Origin: an uncultured Bacilli bacterium
Lineage (GTDB): Bacteria > Bacillota_I > Bacilli_A > RF39 > UBA660
NCBI GenBank assembly: GCA_947630515.1
Contig: CANRHY010000005.1
Span: 1-18,420 of the forward strand
Reading direction: 5' to 3'
Length of the DNA: 18,420 nt
Shown: positions 1-18,420 of the stretch, piece by piece
Layout of the letters: every line of letters starts with the position of its first letter
Numbering within the stretch: the first letter of the stretch is position 1
Notes under the pieces: model-generated
Database searches by the model: none
The model's input: only the letters and a program-made list of their open reading frames with translations
Told to the model about the DNA's origin: nothing
Made by a program: the position numbers and the translations under genes

Positions 1-1999
1 CTCGCAAGATATTACTTATACAACTAATAATGAACTTGGATTTGACTATTTAAGAGATAATATGGTTGTAAGAAAAGAGCAAAGGGTACAAAGAGGATTA
101 AACTTTGCAATTATTGATGAAGTTGACTCAATACTTATAGATGAAGCTAGAACACCATTAATTATTAGTGGCGGTGTTAGTCGTGGGGCTGATTTATATA
201 AACTAGCTGATAGAACTGCAAAAAGTTTGACAGTTGACGACTATGTAATTGATGAAAAAACTCGTAGTGTAACTTTAACAGAAGATGGTATTAAAAAATG
301 TGAAAAGTTATTAAATTTAGATAATATGTATGATATAAAAAATGCTGCTATTGTGCATAATTTAGATAAAGCACTTGTTGCTAACTATGCTTTTAAAAAA
401 GATGTAGATTATGTAATTGAAGCAGATAAAATTGTTATAGTAGATGCATTTACTGGAAGACTTATGCACGGAAGACAATATAGTGATGGGCTTCATCAAG
501 CACTTGAAGCAAAAGAGGGAGTACATATTAATGAAGAAACTAAGGTTTTGGCAACAATTACTTTCCAAAATTTATTTAGGATGTATAATAAACTTTCTGG
601 TATGACTGGTACTGCTAAAACTGAGGAAGAAGAGTTTAGAAATATATATAACATGTATGTAATTGAAATTCCTACAAATAAACCTGTTATTAGAGAAGAT
701 ATGGAAGATATTATATATGTTAATATGCGTGGAAAATATAATGCAATTGCCAATACTATAGAAGAGTTACATAAAAAGGGTCAACCAATTCTAGTTGGTA
801 CTGCTTCTATTGAAAGTTCTGAAGTTTTAAGTAATTTACTTCAAAAAAGAGGTATTAAACATGAACTTCTTAATGCTAAAAATCATGAGAGAGAAGCACA
901 TATAATCGAGCAAGCTGGACAAAAAGGTGCGGTTACCATTGCAACTAATATGGCTGGTCGTGGAACTGATATTAAGCTTGGAGAAGGTGTTGCTGAGTTA
1001 GGTGGACTTGCAGTAATTGGTACTGAAAGACATGAAAGTAGAAGAATTGATAACCAATTAAGAGGTAGAAGTGGTCGTCAAGGAGACCCTGGTGTTACTA
1101 GATTCTTTATATCTATGGAAGATGATTTAATGATTAAATTTGGTAGTGAAAAAATGAAAAGTGTTATGACTACTTTAGGTTTTACAGAAGATATGCCAAT
1201 TACAAATAAATTAATGAGTAAGAATATAGAAAGTTCTCAAAAAAGAGTTGAAGGATTTAACTATGACAGGCGTAAAGCATTACTTGATTATGATAATGTT
1301 ATTAGTAAGCAAAGAGAGATTGTTTATGAAAGAAGAAATGAAATATTAGATAAAGATAGTATTCGTGATAGAGTTTTATCTATATTTAAGGATTTTGTAA
1401 TAGATGAAGTAAATAACCACTTTGTACCAGAAGATACTTTAACACATAATGACATTGTTAATATTTGTGAGTTATTTAATGCAAATTTACTTAAGAGTAA
1501 AAAGTTAAATGAACAAGATTTAGAAAATAAGGAAATTAATGACGTTCAAGATACTATTTATGATATAGTGGTAGATGATTATAATACTAAGTTAAAAGAT
1601 GTTCCAGAAGAAATTCAAAATGATTTTGAAAAAGCTGTAACATTAAGAATTTTAGATAAAAACTGGATGGAACAACTAGATGCTATGGAACAATTAAAAG
1701 AAGGTATTGGTTTAAGAGGATATGCACAAACTAATCCACTTCAAGCTTATGCATTAGAAGGATTTGATTTATTTGATAATATGCTTAAAGATACTAATAA
1801 GGAGATTACTACTTATTTATTAAAGGCAGAAGTAAGACAAAACCTAGAAAGAGAAGAAAATAAAAATATTAGAACTAATGATTCTAAAGAAGGAGTTAAA
1901 AAGCAACCTAGGAAAGCTGAAAAGAAAATAGGTAGGAATCAAATGTGCCCATGCGGCTCCGGTCTTAAGTACAAGCAATGTTGTGGAAAAAATTTATAA
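1..1999 (+). CDS. secA: Protein translocase ATPase SecA, 5'-truncated by window edge
   Basis: SecA is the cytoplasmic motor ATPase that pushes preproteins through SecYEG. The frame is open from base 2, so about 665 residues are visible, and roughly the first 180 (with the Walker A site) lie outside the window. The visible part opens with the SecA-typical TNNELGFDYLRDN segment, followed by DEVDSILIDEARTPLIISG, the DEAD-type Walker B region. Further on are the preprotein cross-linking region, the second nucleotide-binding fold with TNMAGRGTDIKLG and QLRGRSGRQGDPG, and the helical scaffold and wing. The C-terminus has a charged linker and then CPCGSGLKYKQCCG, the SEC-C zinc-binding tail (CxC, eight residues, CC), which normally contacts SecB or lipid. 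Nothing looks broken. The next gene starts 34 bp after the stop, so co-transcription is likely. prfB, a common neighbour of secA in Firmicutes, is not found here. Confidence 0.97.
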   Translation, partial: SQDITYTTNNELGFDYLRDNMVVRKEQRVQRGLNFAIIDEVDSILIDEARTPLIISGGVSRGADLYKLADRTAKSLTVDDYVIDEKTRSVTLTEDGIKKCEKLLNLDNMYDIKNAAIVHNLDKALVANYAFKKDVDYVIEADKIVIVDAFTGRLMHGRQYSDGLHQALEAKEGVHINEETKVLATITFQNLFRMYNKLSGMTGTAKTEEEEFRNIYNMYVIEIPTNKPVIREDMEDIIYVNMRGKYNAIANTIEELHKKGQPILVGTASIESSEVLSNLLQKRGIKHELLNAKNHEREAHIIEQAGQKGAVTIATNMAGRGTDIKLGEGVAELGGLAVIGTERHESRRIDNQLRGRSGRQGDPGVTRFFISMEDDLMIKFGSEKMKSVMTTLGFTEDMPITNKLMSKNIESSQKRVEGFNYDRRKALLDYDNVISKQREIVYERRNEILDKDSIRDRVLSIFKDFVIDEVNNHFVPEDTLTHNDIVNICELFNANLLKSKKLNEQDLENKEINDVQDTIYDIVVDDYNTKLKDVPEEIQNDFEKAVTLRILDKNWMEQLDAMEQLKEGIGLRGYAQTNPLQAYALEGFDLFDNMLKDTNKEITTYLLKAEVRQNLEREENKNIRTNDSKEGVKKQPRKAEKKIGRNQMCPCGSGLKYKQCCGKNL

Positions 2000-15352: not shown

Positions 15353-15446
15353 AATCTAAATAGTAATTAAAATTATAAAGATAATCTTTTTGTTAATTAA
15401 GTGTTAAAAAGTTATATACTTTGTATGAAAAGGTTAAAATAAATAG

Positions 15447-15452
15447 TATAAT
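15447..15452 (+). promoter_or_regulatory. Possible -10 box of the PGK-TIM gene
   Basis: TATAAT lies 28 bp before the ATG at 15481, with AGGTGA near 15471 as ribosome binding site. The -35 match is poor (TTGTAT at 15421 is 20 bp away). If used, transcription would start near 15460, ruling out the upstream TTG at 15421 as start codon. Confidence 0.4.
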
Positions 15453-15480
15453 ATTTATAGATGAAATTATAGGTGAAAGT

Positions 15481-17298
15481 ATGAAAACGATAACTGATTT
15501 AAATGTAGAAAATAAAACTGTAATATTAAGGTTAGACTTAAATGTTCCAATTAAAGATGGAAAAGTTGTTGATAATAATAGAATAGTAGAAAGTTTAGAG
15601 ACTATAAAGTATTTAATTACAAATAATGCTAAAATAATTATTATGTCACATTTAGGTAAAGTAAAAACTAAGGAAGATTTAAAAAATACATTGTTTCTAG
15701 TTAAGGAAGAGTTAGAAAAATTGTTAAAGATGCCTATTAAGTTTAGTGAAAATTTAAAGGGAAAAGAATTAGAAAGTTTGGTATCTAATTTGAAACCTAA
15801 AGAAATATTGCTTCTAGAAAATACTAGATTTATGGATTATCCTAATAATTTAGAAAGTGGTTGTGACGAAAAACTATCTAAATATTGGGCAGGTTTAGGA
15901 GATGTTTTTGTTTTAGATGCTTTTGGTAGTTCTCATAGGGCACATGCATCAACTTATGGAATTAGTAAGTATTTACCTCATGCTGTTGGATTTTTAGTGT
16001 TAAAAGAAGTTACAGAATTAGATAAAATAAAGAGTGAAGACAAGATAATTATTTTAGGTGGGGCTAAGGTTAGTGATAAGATTAAGTTAATTAAAAATTT
16101 AATGAGTTCTACTTCACTATTTTTAATAGGTGGGGCAATGTGCGCTAGTTTTTTGAAAGTTAGTGGAGTGGATGTTGGCTCTACTTTTGTGGAAGTGGAA
16201 AATAAAGAAGAACTAAAAGAATTACTAGATACTAAAAAGATAATATTACCGGTAGACGTTGTAACTGAAAATGGAGTGAAAGATTTAAATCATATTGAAA
16301 AAGCAGAGCATATTTTAGATATAGGACCTAAAACAATAGAAATGTTTACAAGTAAGTTAGATAAATCTAAATTAATTTTGTTAAATGGCACTATGGGAAA
16401 ATATGAAGAAGAAGCTTATGAAAATGGTACTAAGAAAATTTTTGATTATTTAGGTAGGGATAAATATAAAGTAGTTGTGTGTGGTGGAGATACAGTTAGT
16501 GCGTCTAATAAATATAATTTTAAAGCATATTTTAAGTCTACTGGTGGAGGAGCAAGTTTAGAATATATTGAAGGTAATGTGTTAAAGCCACTAGAGATTA
16601 TGAATGAAGAGGATAATAAATTAATAGTACTTAATAATAAAAGTTATTTAAGTTATGATGAAATGTTAAATTATATTGATAGTTTAAAGGGTATTTCATA
16701 TAAAAATTTAGTAGTACTTCCTAATATTGCATATATTTCTTTATTTAAGAATACTAATATTTTGTTAGGAGCACAAAACTTTTATAGTTATAATTACGGC
16801 GCGTATACTGGGGAAACATCACTTGAGTTACTTAAAGATTTAGGAGTTACTTACACTTTGGTCGGACACCCTGAAAGATTAACGCTACAACTTGATTTTT
16901 ATGAAGAAGTGAAAGATAAATTATTTAAGAGTTTAAGTAGTGGTTTTAATACTATACTTTGTCTTATGCATGATGGTAAAGTTAGTACTTTAAAAAAAGA
17001 ATTAAGGTTTTATTTAAAAGGTATAGATTTGGAATCTTTAGAACACTTAATTATTTCTTTTGAGCCAGCAGATCGTATAGAAAGTGGTAATGTAGATTTA
17101 AAAAATATAGAATATGTAAGAAATTTTGTTAAATCTTATATGAAAAAGAATTTTGATAAAGATGTTCCATTTTTGTATGGTGGAGGTGTTACATTAGATA
17201 ATATTAAAGATGTGATTAAAATTACTGATGGTGTTATTCTTGGAAAAAATAGTACAAATATAGAAGTTATTAAAAATATTTTAAAAGTGATAAATTAA
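15481..17298 (+). CDS. Fused phosphoglycerate kinase-triosephosphate isomerase
   Basis: This is a 605-residue bifunctional glycolytic enzyme. Residues 1 to about 372 are phosphoglycerate kinase: RLDLNVP (17-23), SHLG (56-59), AFGSSHRAHAST, GGAKVSDK (193-200), NGTMG (302-306, canonical NGPMG), GGDTVSA (335-341) and STGGGASLE. From about residue 380 to the end is triosephosphate isomerase. It keeps the catalytic set: N385 and K387 in LNNKSY, H463 and E465 in VGHPERL, E528 in SFEP, and YGGG (566-569). The isomerase part is only about 225 residues and is divergent: mobile loop 6 reads EPADRIESG instead of EPVWAIGTG, the phosphate loop is GKNST instead of GGASL, and the LCxGE motif is LCLMHDG. PGK-TIM fusions are known, for example in Thermotoga maritima. 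I chose the ATG at 15481 because AGGTGA precedes it and PGK homology begins there. A terminator follows. Confidence 0.93.
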   Translation: MKTITDLNVENKTVILRLDLNVPIKDGKVVDNNRIVESLETIKYLITNNAKIIIMSHLGKVKTKEDLKNTLFLVKEELEKLLKMPIKFSENLKGKELESLVSNLKPKEILLLENTRFMDYPNNLESGCDEKLSKYWAGLGDVFVLDAFGSSHRAHASTYGISKYLPHAVGFLVLKEVTELDKIKSEDKIIILGGAKVSDKIKLIKNLMSSTSLFLIGGAMCASFLKVSGVDVGSTFVEVENKEELKELLDTKKIILPVDVVTENGVKDLNHIEKAEHILDIGPKTIEMFTSKLDKSKLILLNGTMGKYEEEAYENGTKKIFDYLGRDKYKVVVCGGDTVSASNKYNFKAYFKSTGGGASLEYIEGNVLKPLEIMNEEDNKLIVLNNKSYLSYDEMLNYIDSLKGISYKNLVVLPNIAYISLFKNTNILLGAQNFYSYNYGAYTGETSLELLKDLGVTYTLVGHPERLTLQLDFYEEVKDKLFKSLSSGFNTILCLMHDGKVSTLKKELRFYLKGIDLESLEHLIISFEPADRIESGNVDLKNIEYVRNFVKSYMKKNFDKDVPFLYGGGVTLDNIKDVIKITDGVILGKNSTNIEVIKNILKVIN

Positions 17299-17324: not shown

Positions 17325-17338
17325 TTTTGATATCAAAA
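17325..17338. repeat. 14-bp perfect palindrome upstream of spo0A
   Basis: TTTTGATATCAAAA is its own reverse complement. It directly abuts the GACA array, so it may be an operator half of the same regulatory region. Chance is possible in such AT-rich DNA. Confidence 0.45.
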
Positions 17339-17374
17339 TCGACATTTAATGACAAAAATCGACAATTTTAGACA
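17338..17374 (-). promoter_or_regulatory. Putative array of 0A boxes upstream of spo0A
   Basis: GACA occurs at 17341, 17351, 17361 and 17371, exactly one helical turn apart. The first and third are ATCGACA, whose complement TGTCGAT matches the Spo0A box TGTCGAA at six of seven bases. The second and fourth are weaker (ATGACA, TAGACA). All lie on the same strand, as expected for Spo0A molecules binding in tandem. Autoregulation is inferred. Confidence 0.6.
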
Positions 17375-17445: not shown

Positions 17446-18207
17446 ATGAAAAAAAGAGTTATGATTGTCGATGACAATATAGCAATGTGTGAAATGCTTA
17501 AGGAGTTTTTTAGTAGTAATAAGAATTTTGAGGTTCAATATGAAGCTCATGATGGGGAAGAGGCTTGGATACAAATAAGAGATGGGTATAAGGACATAGA
17601 CGTTGTTTTATTAGATTTAATTATGCCTAAAAAAGATGGAATTTATGTTCTTGAAAATGTTAAAGAGAAAAAGATTCCAATTAATATAATTGTTGTTACT
17701 AGCTATAATGAGCAAGAAACTATAAGAAATATAAGTGAGTATGGTGTTAAGTATTTTGTTCTTAAGCCGTTTGATTTAAAGGAATTAGAGAAAAGAATGT
17801 TAGATATAACAAATGAAAGGCCTAAGAGTAAGATTTTAAATTTACAATCTAATAATCTTCAAATACAAATTACAAAAATTCTTCATGAGTTAGGTATACC
17901 ATCTCATATAAAAGGATATCAATATATAAGAGATGCGATTAATATGGTTTATGATAACCCATCTTTGATAGGAGGAATAACAAAGGAATTGTATCCTGAA
18001 ATAGGAGGCAAGTATAATACATCTGTAACTAGAGTTGAAAGAGCAATTAGGCATGCGATAGAAGTTAGCTGGAATAGAGGGGACTGGGATTTAATGGAAG
18101 AAATTTTTGGTCATTCTGTGGATATAGATAAAGCAAAACCTACTAATTCTGAATTTATTGTTACGATAGCTGATAAATTAAGACTTGAAATGTTAAAGAT
18201 AAGTTAG
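17446..18207 (+). CDS. spo0A: Sporulation master regulator Spo0A
   Basis: Spo0A is the response regulator that starts sporulation and other stationary-phase programmes. The 253-residue protein has a receiver domain (1-120) with the acidic pocket D9-D10, phosphorylation site D57 in [10 protein letters not shown]85 in VVTSY and K107 in VLKPFD. After a linker, the effector domain (about 135-253) has the strongly conserved [39 protein letters not shown] and [20 protein letters not shown]. The recognition helix ([15 protein letters not shown]) is close to classical Spo0A, so it should read 0A boxes, and such boxes lie just upstream. AAGGAG precedes the ATG. It is monocistronic, and the stop is only 3 bp from the -35 of the first small-RNA gene, with no terminator in between. 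The kinase and phosphorelay partners are not in this window. Confidence 0.97.
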
Positions 18208-18209
18208 TG

Positions 18210-18238
18210 TTTACAAATTAGTATAATTATGGTATTAT
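18210..18238 (+). promoter_or_regulatory. Promoter of small-RNA copy 1
   Basis: -35 TTTACA (18210-18215), a 17-bp spacer and -10 TATTAT (18233-18238). It lies directly after the spo0A stop codon. The -10 and its surroundings are repeated almost exactly in copy 2. Confidence 0.75.
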
Positions 18239-18244
18239 TAGTAC

Positions 18245-18323
18245 CAGAGTGATTAGTTGGTCCATACCCATGGCTGAACTTATAATAAGTTGGAAGCCTT
18301 CTATGGCAACTAATCATTTTTTT
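18245..18323 (+). ncRNA. Small structured RNA, copy 1 (about 80 nt)
   Basis: No open frame is present. The predicted RNA is one long interrupted rod. Stem 1 is UGAUUAGUUG (18250-18259) with CAACUAAUCA (18307-18316). Stem 2 is CCAUA (18262-18266) with UAUGG (18302-18306). Stem 3 is GGCU (18272-18275) with AGCC (18295-18298). Stem 4 is AACUUA (18277-18282) with UAAGUU (18286-18291), capped by UAA. An asymmetric G/GGA internal loop separates stems 3 and 4. Seven U residues (18317-18323) follow stem 1, so the closing stem acts as the terminator. Copy 2, 115 bp downstream, preserves the fold with compensatory changes. It is probably a trans-acting sRNA with its own promoter. I do not recognise the family; it should be compared with all Rfam models, including those known to occur in tandem in Firmicutes. 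Confidence 0.8.
18307..18323 (+). terminator. 3' stem arm and U-tract of small-RNA copy 1
   Basis: CAACTAATCA closes a 10-bp stem with 18250-18259 and is followed by seven T residues. As nothing terminates spo0A before it, this probably also ends spo0A readthrough transcripts. Confidence 0.75.
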
Positions 18324-18324
18324 G

Positions 18325-18353
18325 TGGACAAAACAGTAAATGTATGGTATCAT
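18325..18353 (+). promoter_or_regulatory. Promoter of small-RNA copy 2
   Basis: -35 TGGACA (18325-18330), a 17-bp spacer and -10 TATCAT (18348-18353), beginning 2 bp after the U-tract of copy 1. The spacing is identical to the copy 1 promoter although the -35 and most of the spacer differ in sequence. Confidence 0.75.
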
Positions 18354-18359
18354 TAGTAC

Positions 18360-18420
18360 CAGAGTGATTAGTTGGCCCATCTTCCTTGGCTGAACCTATA
18401 ATAGGTTGGAAGCCTCTGAT
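18360..18420 (+). ncRNA. Small structured RNA, copy 2, cut by the window end
   Basis: Same layout as copy 1: stem 1 5' arm TGATTAGTTG at 18365-18374, stem 2 5' arm CCATC (18377-18381) with the visible start of its partner GAT (18418-18420), stem 3 GGCT/AGCC (18388-18391, 18411-18414), and stem 4 AACCTA/TAGGTT (18393-18398, 18402-18407) with the same TAA loop. The 3' arm of stem 1 and the U-tract lie beyond the window. Confidence 0.75.

Follow-up and report, generated by a model that had tools for sequence, protein, structure and literature searches.

The window analyzed here, an 18,420-nucleotide (nt) stretch of DNA from an uncultured Bacilli bacterium, ends in a tandem array of small structured RNA units directly after spo0A. 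We found that these RNAs belong to a rare family. At six of the seven RNA loci in five related genomes, the RNA lies tail to tail with a convergent gene, or the traces of one, for a stand-alone protein of ~170 to 195 amino acids (aa) that resembles large polyvalent protein-associated domain 3 (LPD3) of phages. We consider it probable (roughly 60%) that the RNA is an antitoxin that would block a stand-alone LPD3-type toxin by binding it, working much as a type III toxin-antitoxin system does but built differently. This reading was reached because of the strong-looking promoters of the RNA units, their link to a stand-alone phage domain, and the decay of the protein gene at loci where the RNA stays.

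The two units of the window lie in two blocks of direct repeats. The first is 84% identical between copies (18208 to 18265 and 18323 to 18380, spacing 115), and the second is 91% identical (18268 to 18299 and 18384 to 18415, spacing 116). A first-pass annotation of this DNA had described two copies with a 115-bp period, each holding a rod-like RNA of about 80 nt, with a terminator visible in copy 1, and all of this held up. The predicted fold of copy 1 has an energy of −27.1 kcal/mol (z = −3.89), and 0 of 200 shuffled sequences folded equally well. Its outer stem leads directly into a run of seven T residues, and its differences from copy 2 are paired changes. A generic terminator scan of the window returned 0 sites, because it counts only hairpins with loops of 3 to 8. 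Copy 2 lacks its 3′ side. The window is the entire contig (C5 of the source assembly, G000), so copy 2 was cut by the assembly rather than by the window. The first-pass annotation was therefore right that the array is cut. As for the further copies that it thought possible, a search of the contigs of G000 (~900 kb, 74% complete) found no third copy elsewhere.

A DNA search of nine genomes of the genus found the RNA in two of them (G003 and G008) beyond the window's own genome. A covariance model (R1) was built from these two RNAs and both window copies. Searching relatives with such a model had been proposed in the first-pass annotation, and R1 found new loci outside its training set in G004 (79.5 bits), G197 (49.7 bits), and G082 (two loci, 46.5 and 33.8 bits). 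R1 detected the RNA in 4 of 386 genomes of the family, and RNA model R2, run on 385 genomes of the order, picked out the same 4 (the samples overlap). No further genome was found with R2 among those 385 and 39 relatives of G082. Searches over more than 40 genomes scored 12 candidates per genome, so absences in them are soft. A search with A3 over 377 genomes of the phylum gave a single match, a frame with a stop in G672, where R2 scored at most 14.7 bits (E = 0.07). Rfam returned 0 matches at the gathering cutoff for the window and nine further loci (best subthreshold E value, 3.8), in line with the first-pass remark that no family could be named that fits. Long flanking stretches, with a copy of the smc 3′ end among them, are common to two of the G082 RNA loci (L142, 1580 to 1897; L143, minus strand from ~1500 down), as a segmental duplication would leave them.

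The rod is supported by covariation. In an alignment of eight sequences, which had been fitted to the model, 15 of 27 pairs have changes on both sides (29 cells). None of 500 shuffles equaled this, and slid controls gave 0 to 2 pairs. A plain MAFFT alignment analyzed with RNAalifold produced a rod of the same type, in which 13 of 25 pairs are changed on both sides. While the stems vary, GUUGGAA is identical in all eight rows and UGAAC in seven (it is UGAUC in G082b). This nearly fixed internal loop looks like a recognized three-dimensional site, not an antisense loop. Conservation does not extend to a C-rich internal loop: four of the eight rows have CCC, one has CC, and three have neither. 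We rejected a phage origin of the RNA. The core pattern occurs in 27 viral contigs, but R1 scored at most 16.1 bits there (E = 0.34), and a rough estimate of chance gives about as many such contigs. A small open reading frame in the RNA, ATGGCTGAAC, was also rejected. It is open in copy 1, but in G003 it is closed by a stop codon after five codons, and its ATG is absent from copy 2 and from G004.

The −35, exact 17-bp spacer, and −10 that had been read in front of each copy were recovered (Table 1). A promoter scan of the window is weak by itself (8 sites versus 6.6 expected from shuffles), and the support for these promoters is comparative. We scored 11 units: both window copies, one each at G003, G004, G008, G197, and contig C75 of G082 (G082:C75), and two each at G082:C112 and G082:C95. 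In all 11, the best site has a 17-nt spacer and a TG-extended −10, and it lies 7 to 11 nt upstream of the outer stem. These are not independent cases, because the units are related. With the spacing fixed at 17 and the TG counted, no more than 2% of 200 shuffles matched in 10 of the 11 units, and 8% matched in the other. With the spacing free (16 to 18) and the TG ignored, the fractions ranged from 0.005 to 0.5. A twelfth unit (A′ of G082:C95) shows no separate promoter and was left out of the scoring. This promoter layout supports, at the level of sequence, the earlier claim that each copy is a separate transcription unit. It also bears on the notion that the element is a repeat or a bidirectional terminator that yields no RNA, which the rod shape, tandem copies, and U tract would suit. 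We regard that as very improbable, given the promoter layout before all of the scored units and the fixed internal loop amid covarying stems. Furthermore, each genome has one to a few copies, rather than the random scatter of the mobile repeat that the first-pass annotation had named as one alternative.

The LhrC-like alternative can be judged on the same features. The LhrC small RNAs (sRNAs) of Listeria are encoded in tandem copies, each with a promoter and a terminator, and they have kept a single-stranded C-rich pairing loop. The array studied here likewise has tandem copies with their own promoters and a terminator, and some copies have no adjoining gene (the window and G082:C75). A multicopy trans-acting sRNA that pairs with the mRNAs of other genes, its LPD3 link being due to hitchhiking on a mobile islet, is nevertheless unlikely in our judgment. 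Unlike in LhrC, the C-rich loop is not kept, the part that is kept is an internal loop within pairs, and a protein gene is linked to the RNA, intact or as traces, at all but one of the relatives' loci.

Open LPD3-like frames are present at G003, G008, and G082:C95 (the 5′ end of the last runs off the contig). The RNA and the reading frame overlap by 15 nt in G003 and by 11 nt in G008. At G082:C112, the gene is frameshifted, beside a diverged rod (R2, 20.9 bits; E = 0.011, which is marginal). In G197, the gene has decayed, with pieces left in different frames. In G004, the gene is split near the ends of two contigs (C43 and C44; L155 and L138), as if by an insertion: its last codons adjoin the RNA on one, and its main body is on the other. 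A broken gene together with a sound RNA at G197, G004, and G082:C112 fits the loss of a toxin. At G082:C75, the contig ends after another 318 nt, and no LPD3-like gene was seen in them.

The units found per locus vary: at least two in the window, three rods at G082:C95, and one found at each of G003, G008, G004, and G197. Read toward the gene, G082:C95 opens with a promoter and rod A; next come rod A′ (a 150-nt stretch with T7 at its end), a second promoter, and rod B, which leads into a run of T residues, and the convergent open gene follows. R2, which was not trained on these rods, scored B at 30.6 bits (E = 7.5e-5), A′ at 22.3 bits (E = 0.0054), and A at 12.5 bits (E = 0.86). The inner loop of rod B is unlike that of the main group, and the protein at this locus is 36% identical to that of G003. 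This divergence on both sides would fit matched RNA-protein pairs.

The RNA and the protein also tend to occur in the same genomes. Within the genus, the protein is in three of nine genomes, all of them among the four that carry the RNA (Fisher P = 0.048). In the order sample, the RNA is in 4 and the protein in 3 of 385 genomes, with two shared (P = 2.4e-4). The RNA-only cases there are the window's genome, where the contig stops inside copy 2, and G197, which has the gene relic. A single-protein search of 193 genomes of the family matched only G082. Some observations weigh against an RNA antitoxin for this protein. The third genome of the order with the protein, G247, has it as a 671-aa frame without the RNA and was counted against co-occurrence. 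In addition, the assembly that holds the window, at its 74% completeness, yielded no LPD3-like gene. Therefore, the partner of the window RNAs is inferred from relatives.

The LPD3-like frames encode 174 aa and 194 aa, and their structure model is confident and soluble looking. The PF18798 (LPD3) profile gave the G003 protein 21 bits, versus a Pfam cutoff of 27, and gave the G008 protein no score. Because it falls below the cutoff, we refer to the protein as an LPD3-like relative, not a member. PF18798 appears in the precomputed labels of 4 of 18 homologues. A Foldseek comparison of the predicted model with BFVD gave nine rows at E ≤ 0.001, two of them named LPD3 (E = 4.1e-7 and 6.0e-4), which suggests the same fold as phage LPD3 proteins. 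The likeness to LPD3, as that domain is presented in excerpts of its original description (PMC5512222), is thus one of sequence and predicted fold. In the same excerpts, its describers term the function of LPD3 elusive. Phage LPD3 is found within large multidomain proteins, whereas here it is a stand-alone protein adjoining an RNA. Other searches with the protein gave little: no match in PADLOC or among plasmids, nothing below an E value of 0.03 in PHROGs, and one unannotated phage record (34% identity). Among solved structures, the best sequence match had an E value of 0.26, with no ToxN, CptN, or TenpN chain below 1. Foldseek found nothing in the PDB at E ≤ 0.001, fold searches gave no clear match, and the 7m5f chain was not identified as a toxin or immunity protein. 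Because of these sequence and PDB results, reading the protein as a BECR fold is a guess.

An RNA antitoxin could work as follows. The RNA units would be made steadily from their predicted promoters, and the protein would recognize the UGAAC/GUUGGAA internal loop. Free LPD3-type protein would be toxic, perhaps as a BECR-fold RNase. A stop in the RNA supply, such as a phage takeover might cause, would release the toxin. The window's partner gene would then either lie past the contig end or have been lost. There is precedent in RCd22 of Clostridioides difficile, which, according to the portions of the report consulted (PMC12373285), neutralizes AbiF by direct binding, also in trans. Linkage and co-occurrence would suit any protein-RNA pair, including one in which the RNA works together with the LPD3-like protein (as a cofactor, guide, or preferred substrate in a ribonucleoprotein, perhaps for defense) instead of inhibiting it. 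We think this unlikely, too, though slightly less so than an LhrC-like role, because the RNA has stayed intact at loci that lack the gene or hold a damaged one (G197, G004, and G082:C75), as would be expected of an antidote more than of a cofactor.

RatA/TxpA and SR4/BsrG are convergent type I pairs of Firmicutes, in which the RNA converges on the 3′ end of the partner gene. The RNA studied here does the same, and the overlaps in G003 and G008 would suit a type I-like action, in which an antisense RNA blocks the mRNA of the convergent gene by pairing with it, at its 3′ end or elsewhere. However, such an action is improbable. With the overlapping 3′ end left out, the best RNA-gene duplex was no better than 60 shuffles each in three of three pairs (fractions of 0.28, 0.18, and 0.60), and the longest exact complement was 7 to 8 nt. 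Moreover, the nearly fixed internal loops lie inside covarying stems, and the partner is a 174-aa protein with a predicted fold, not a small hydrophobic peptide as in RatA/TxpA and SR4/BsrG.

The RNA antitoxin that we favor also differs from known protein-binding ones. In type III systems, as set out in the parts of a survey consulted (PMC5086642), a single promoter drives one operon with the RNA upstream, then a terminator, and then the toxin gene. The ToxIN, CptIN, and TenpIN systems described there are similar to the present one in that the RNA adjoins its protein partner and its units can be tandem. The linkage of RNA and protein gene is known here from six of the seven loci in relatives, not from the window. 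The differences are that there is not one operon, no gene lies downstream of the RNA, and the arrangement is convergent at all six loci with the gene or its traces. Also, the type III repeats in that survey are 34 to 50 nt, whereas here there are ~80-nt rods, mostly with one promoter each, and an LPD3-type protein. Because the one-operon, RNA-upstream layout is absent, we have not filed the system as type III. RCd22, in the portions of PMC12373285 consulted, is likewise short and structured, has a promoter and a terminator to itself, and is linked to a single protein gene. However, AbiF is from another protein family, and RCd22 is encoded ahead of the abiF gene in the same orientation, with transcription reading through into it, whereas here the two are convergent. 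In the open-access literature, which leaves subscription papers uncovered, we found no published account of this RNA-protein pair.

The first-pass annotation had tied the array to the developmental regulator spo0A. This did not hold, and we judge the neighborhood to be incidental. We took 80 of 575 spo0A loci, from uncultured Bacilli and similar organisms in metagenome assemblies, and read the region 3′ of the gene in 12. In the two closest among those listed (L013 and L014; Spo0A 82% and 83% identical), the next coding frame begins within ~70 nt and the RNA is absent. The exact core pattern was in 0 of the 80 loci, although diverged members would escape that pattern. Conversely, at the seven loci in five relatives, the RNA has other neighbors: EF-Tu, SMC, ribosomal protein L20, a tyrosine recombinase, a short-chain dehydrogenase, an AP-endonuclease-like protein, and YetF. 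A spo0A-linked regulator was thus rejected. Upstream of spo0A are two tandem AAAATCGACA repeats (17335 to 17374), which we take to resemble Spo0A boxes and which would fit spo0A autoregulation. Also in the window, phosphoglycerate kinase and triosephosphate isomerase share one 625-aa reading frame (15421 to 17298).

Table 1. Features at the 3′ end of the window
Feature	Position	Strand	Remarks
spo0A	17446..18207	+	Pfam Spo0A_C and Response_reg; neighbor upstream of RNA array
Predicted promoter, copy 1	18210..18238	+	TTTACA, 17 nt, TATTAT; 10/12 consensus, TG-extended −10
Near-palindrome TGGTATTATTAGTACCA (17 bp)	18230..18246		Spans −10 of copy 1; exact at two other genome places
RNA copy 1 (~80-nt rod)	18245..18324	+	Predicted fold z −3.89; R1 101.8 bits (in training); covariation; order: outer stem, 2-nt bulge, CCAUA/UAUGG helix, internal loop, GGCU/AGCC helix, G/GGA internal loop, apical hairpin
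Core of copy 1, UGAAC	18275..18279	+	Partner strand GUUGGAA, 18289-18295
Terminator T run (T7), copy 1	18317-18323	+	Directly after outer stem, read from sequence
Predicted promoter, copy 2	18325..18353	+	TGGACA, 17 nt, TATCAT; 10/12, TG-extended −10
Near-palindrome TGGTATTATTAGTACCA at copy 2	18345..18361		One mismatch to pattern
RNA copy 2	18360..18420	+	3′ side missing at contig end; R1 58.1 bits as 3′-cut match (in training)
Core of copy 2	UGAAC 18391-18395; GUUGGAA 18405-18411	+	

The near-palindrome in Table 1 spans the −10 of several unrelated promoters of the same assembly, being exact on contigs C5, C89, and C95 and having one mismatch at copy 2 of C5 and on C64 and C91 (sites at L121, 1501 to 1517; L122, 645 to 661; and L125, 1463 to 1479). 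A variant spans the −35 of the G008 RNA (L137). Within three mismatches, the pattern occurs at 62 places in the genome, versus 22 for the reversed pattern, and it may be the operator of a regulator. Behind a promoter of this type on C95 is a strong short hairpin with a T run (L122, ~600 to 645, minus strand; 60 nt, −23.8 kcal/mol). By eye, it precedes a pilin-like gene and is perhaps a regulated leader. Behind another, on C91, is a stretch that by eye seems both rich in G+C and structured (L125, ~1480 to 1700, plus strand). Rfam has no match to it up to an E value of 1, and it could be a structured RNA of a new kind.

A bolder and more doubtful proposal is that arrays of covarying rod RNAs, mostly each with its own promoter and facing the gene of a stand-alone LPD3 toxin tail to tail, form a new class of RNA-protein toxin-antitoxin system, in which toxin-free arrays, perhaps including the window's, would act as RNA immunity by soaking up LPD3 effectors delivered by phages; this would be the first function for LPD3. 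If the RNA antitoxin that we consider probable is correct, it would add a further layout for RNA antitoxins, that of convergent, self-contained RNA genes, and the phage domain LPD3 would gain a testable toxin role. The ~80-nt RNA and the ~174-aa protein would also be a small pair with which to study how a protein can be recognized by an RNA rod whose one internal loop is nearly fixed.
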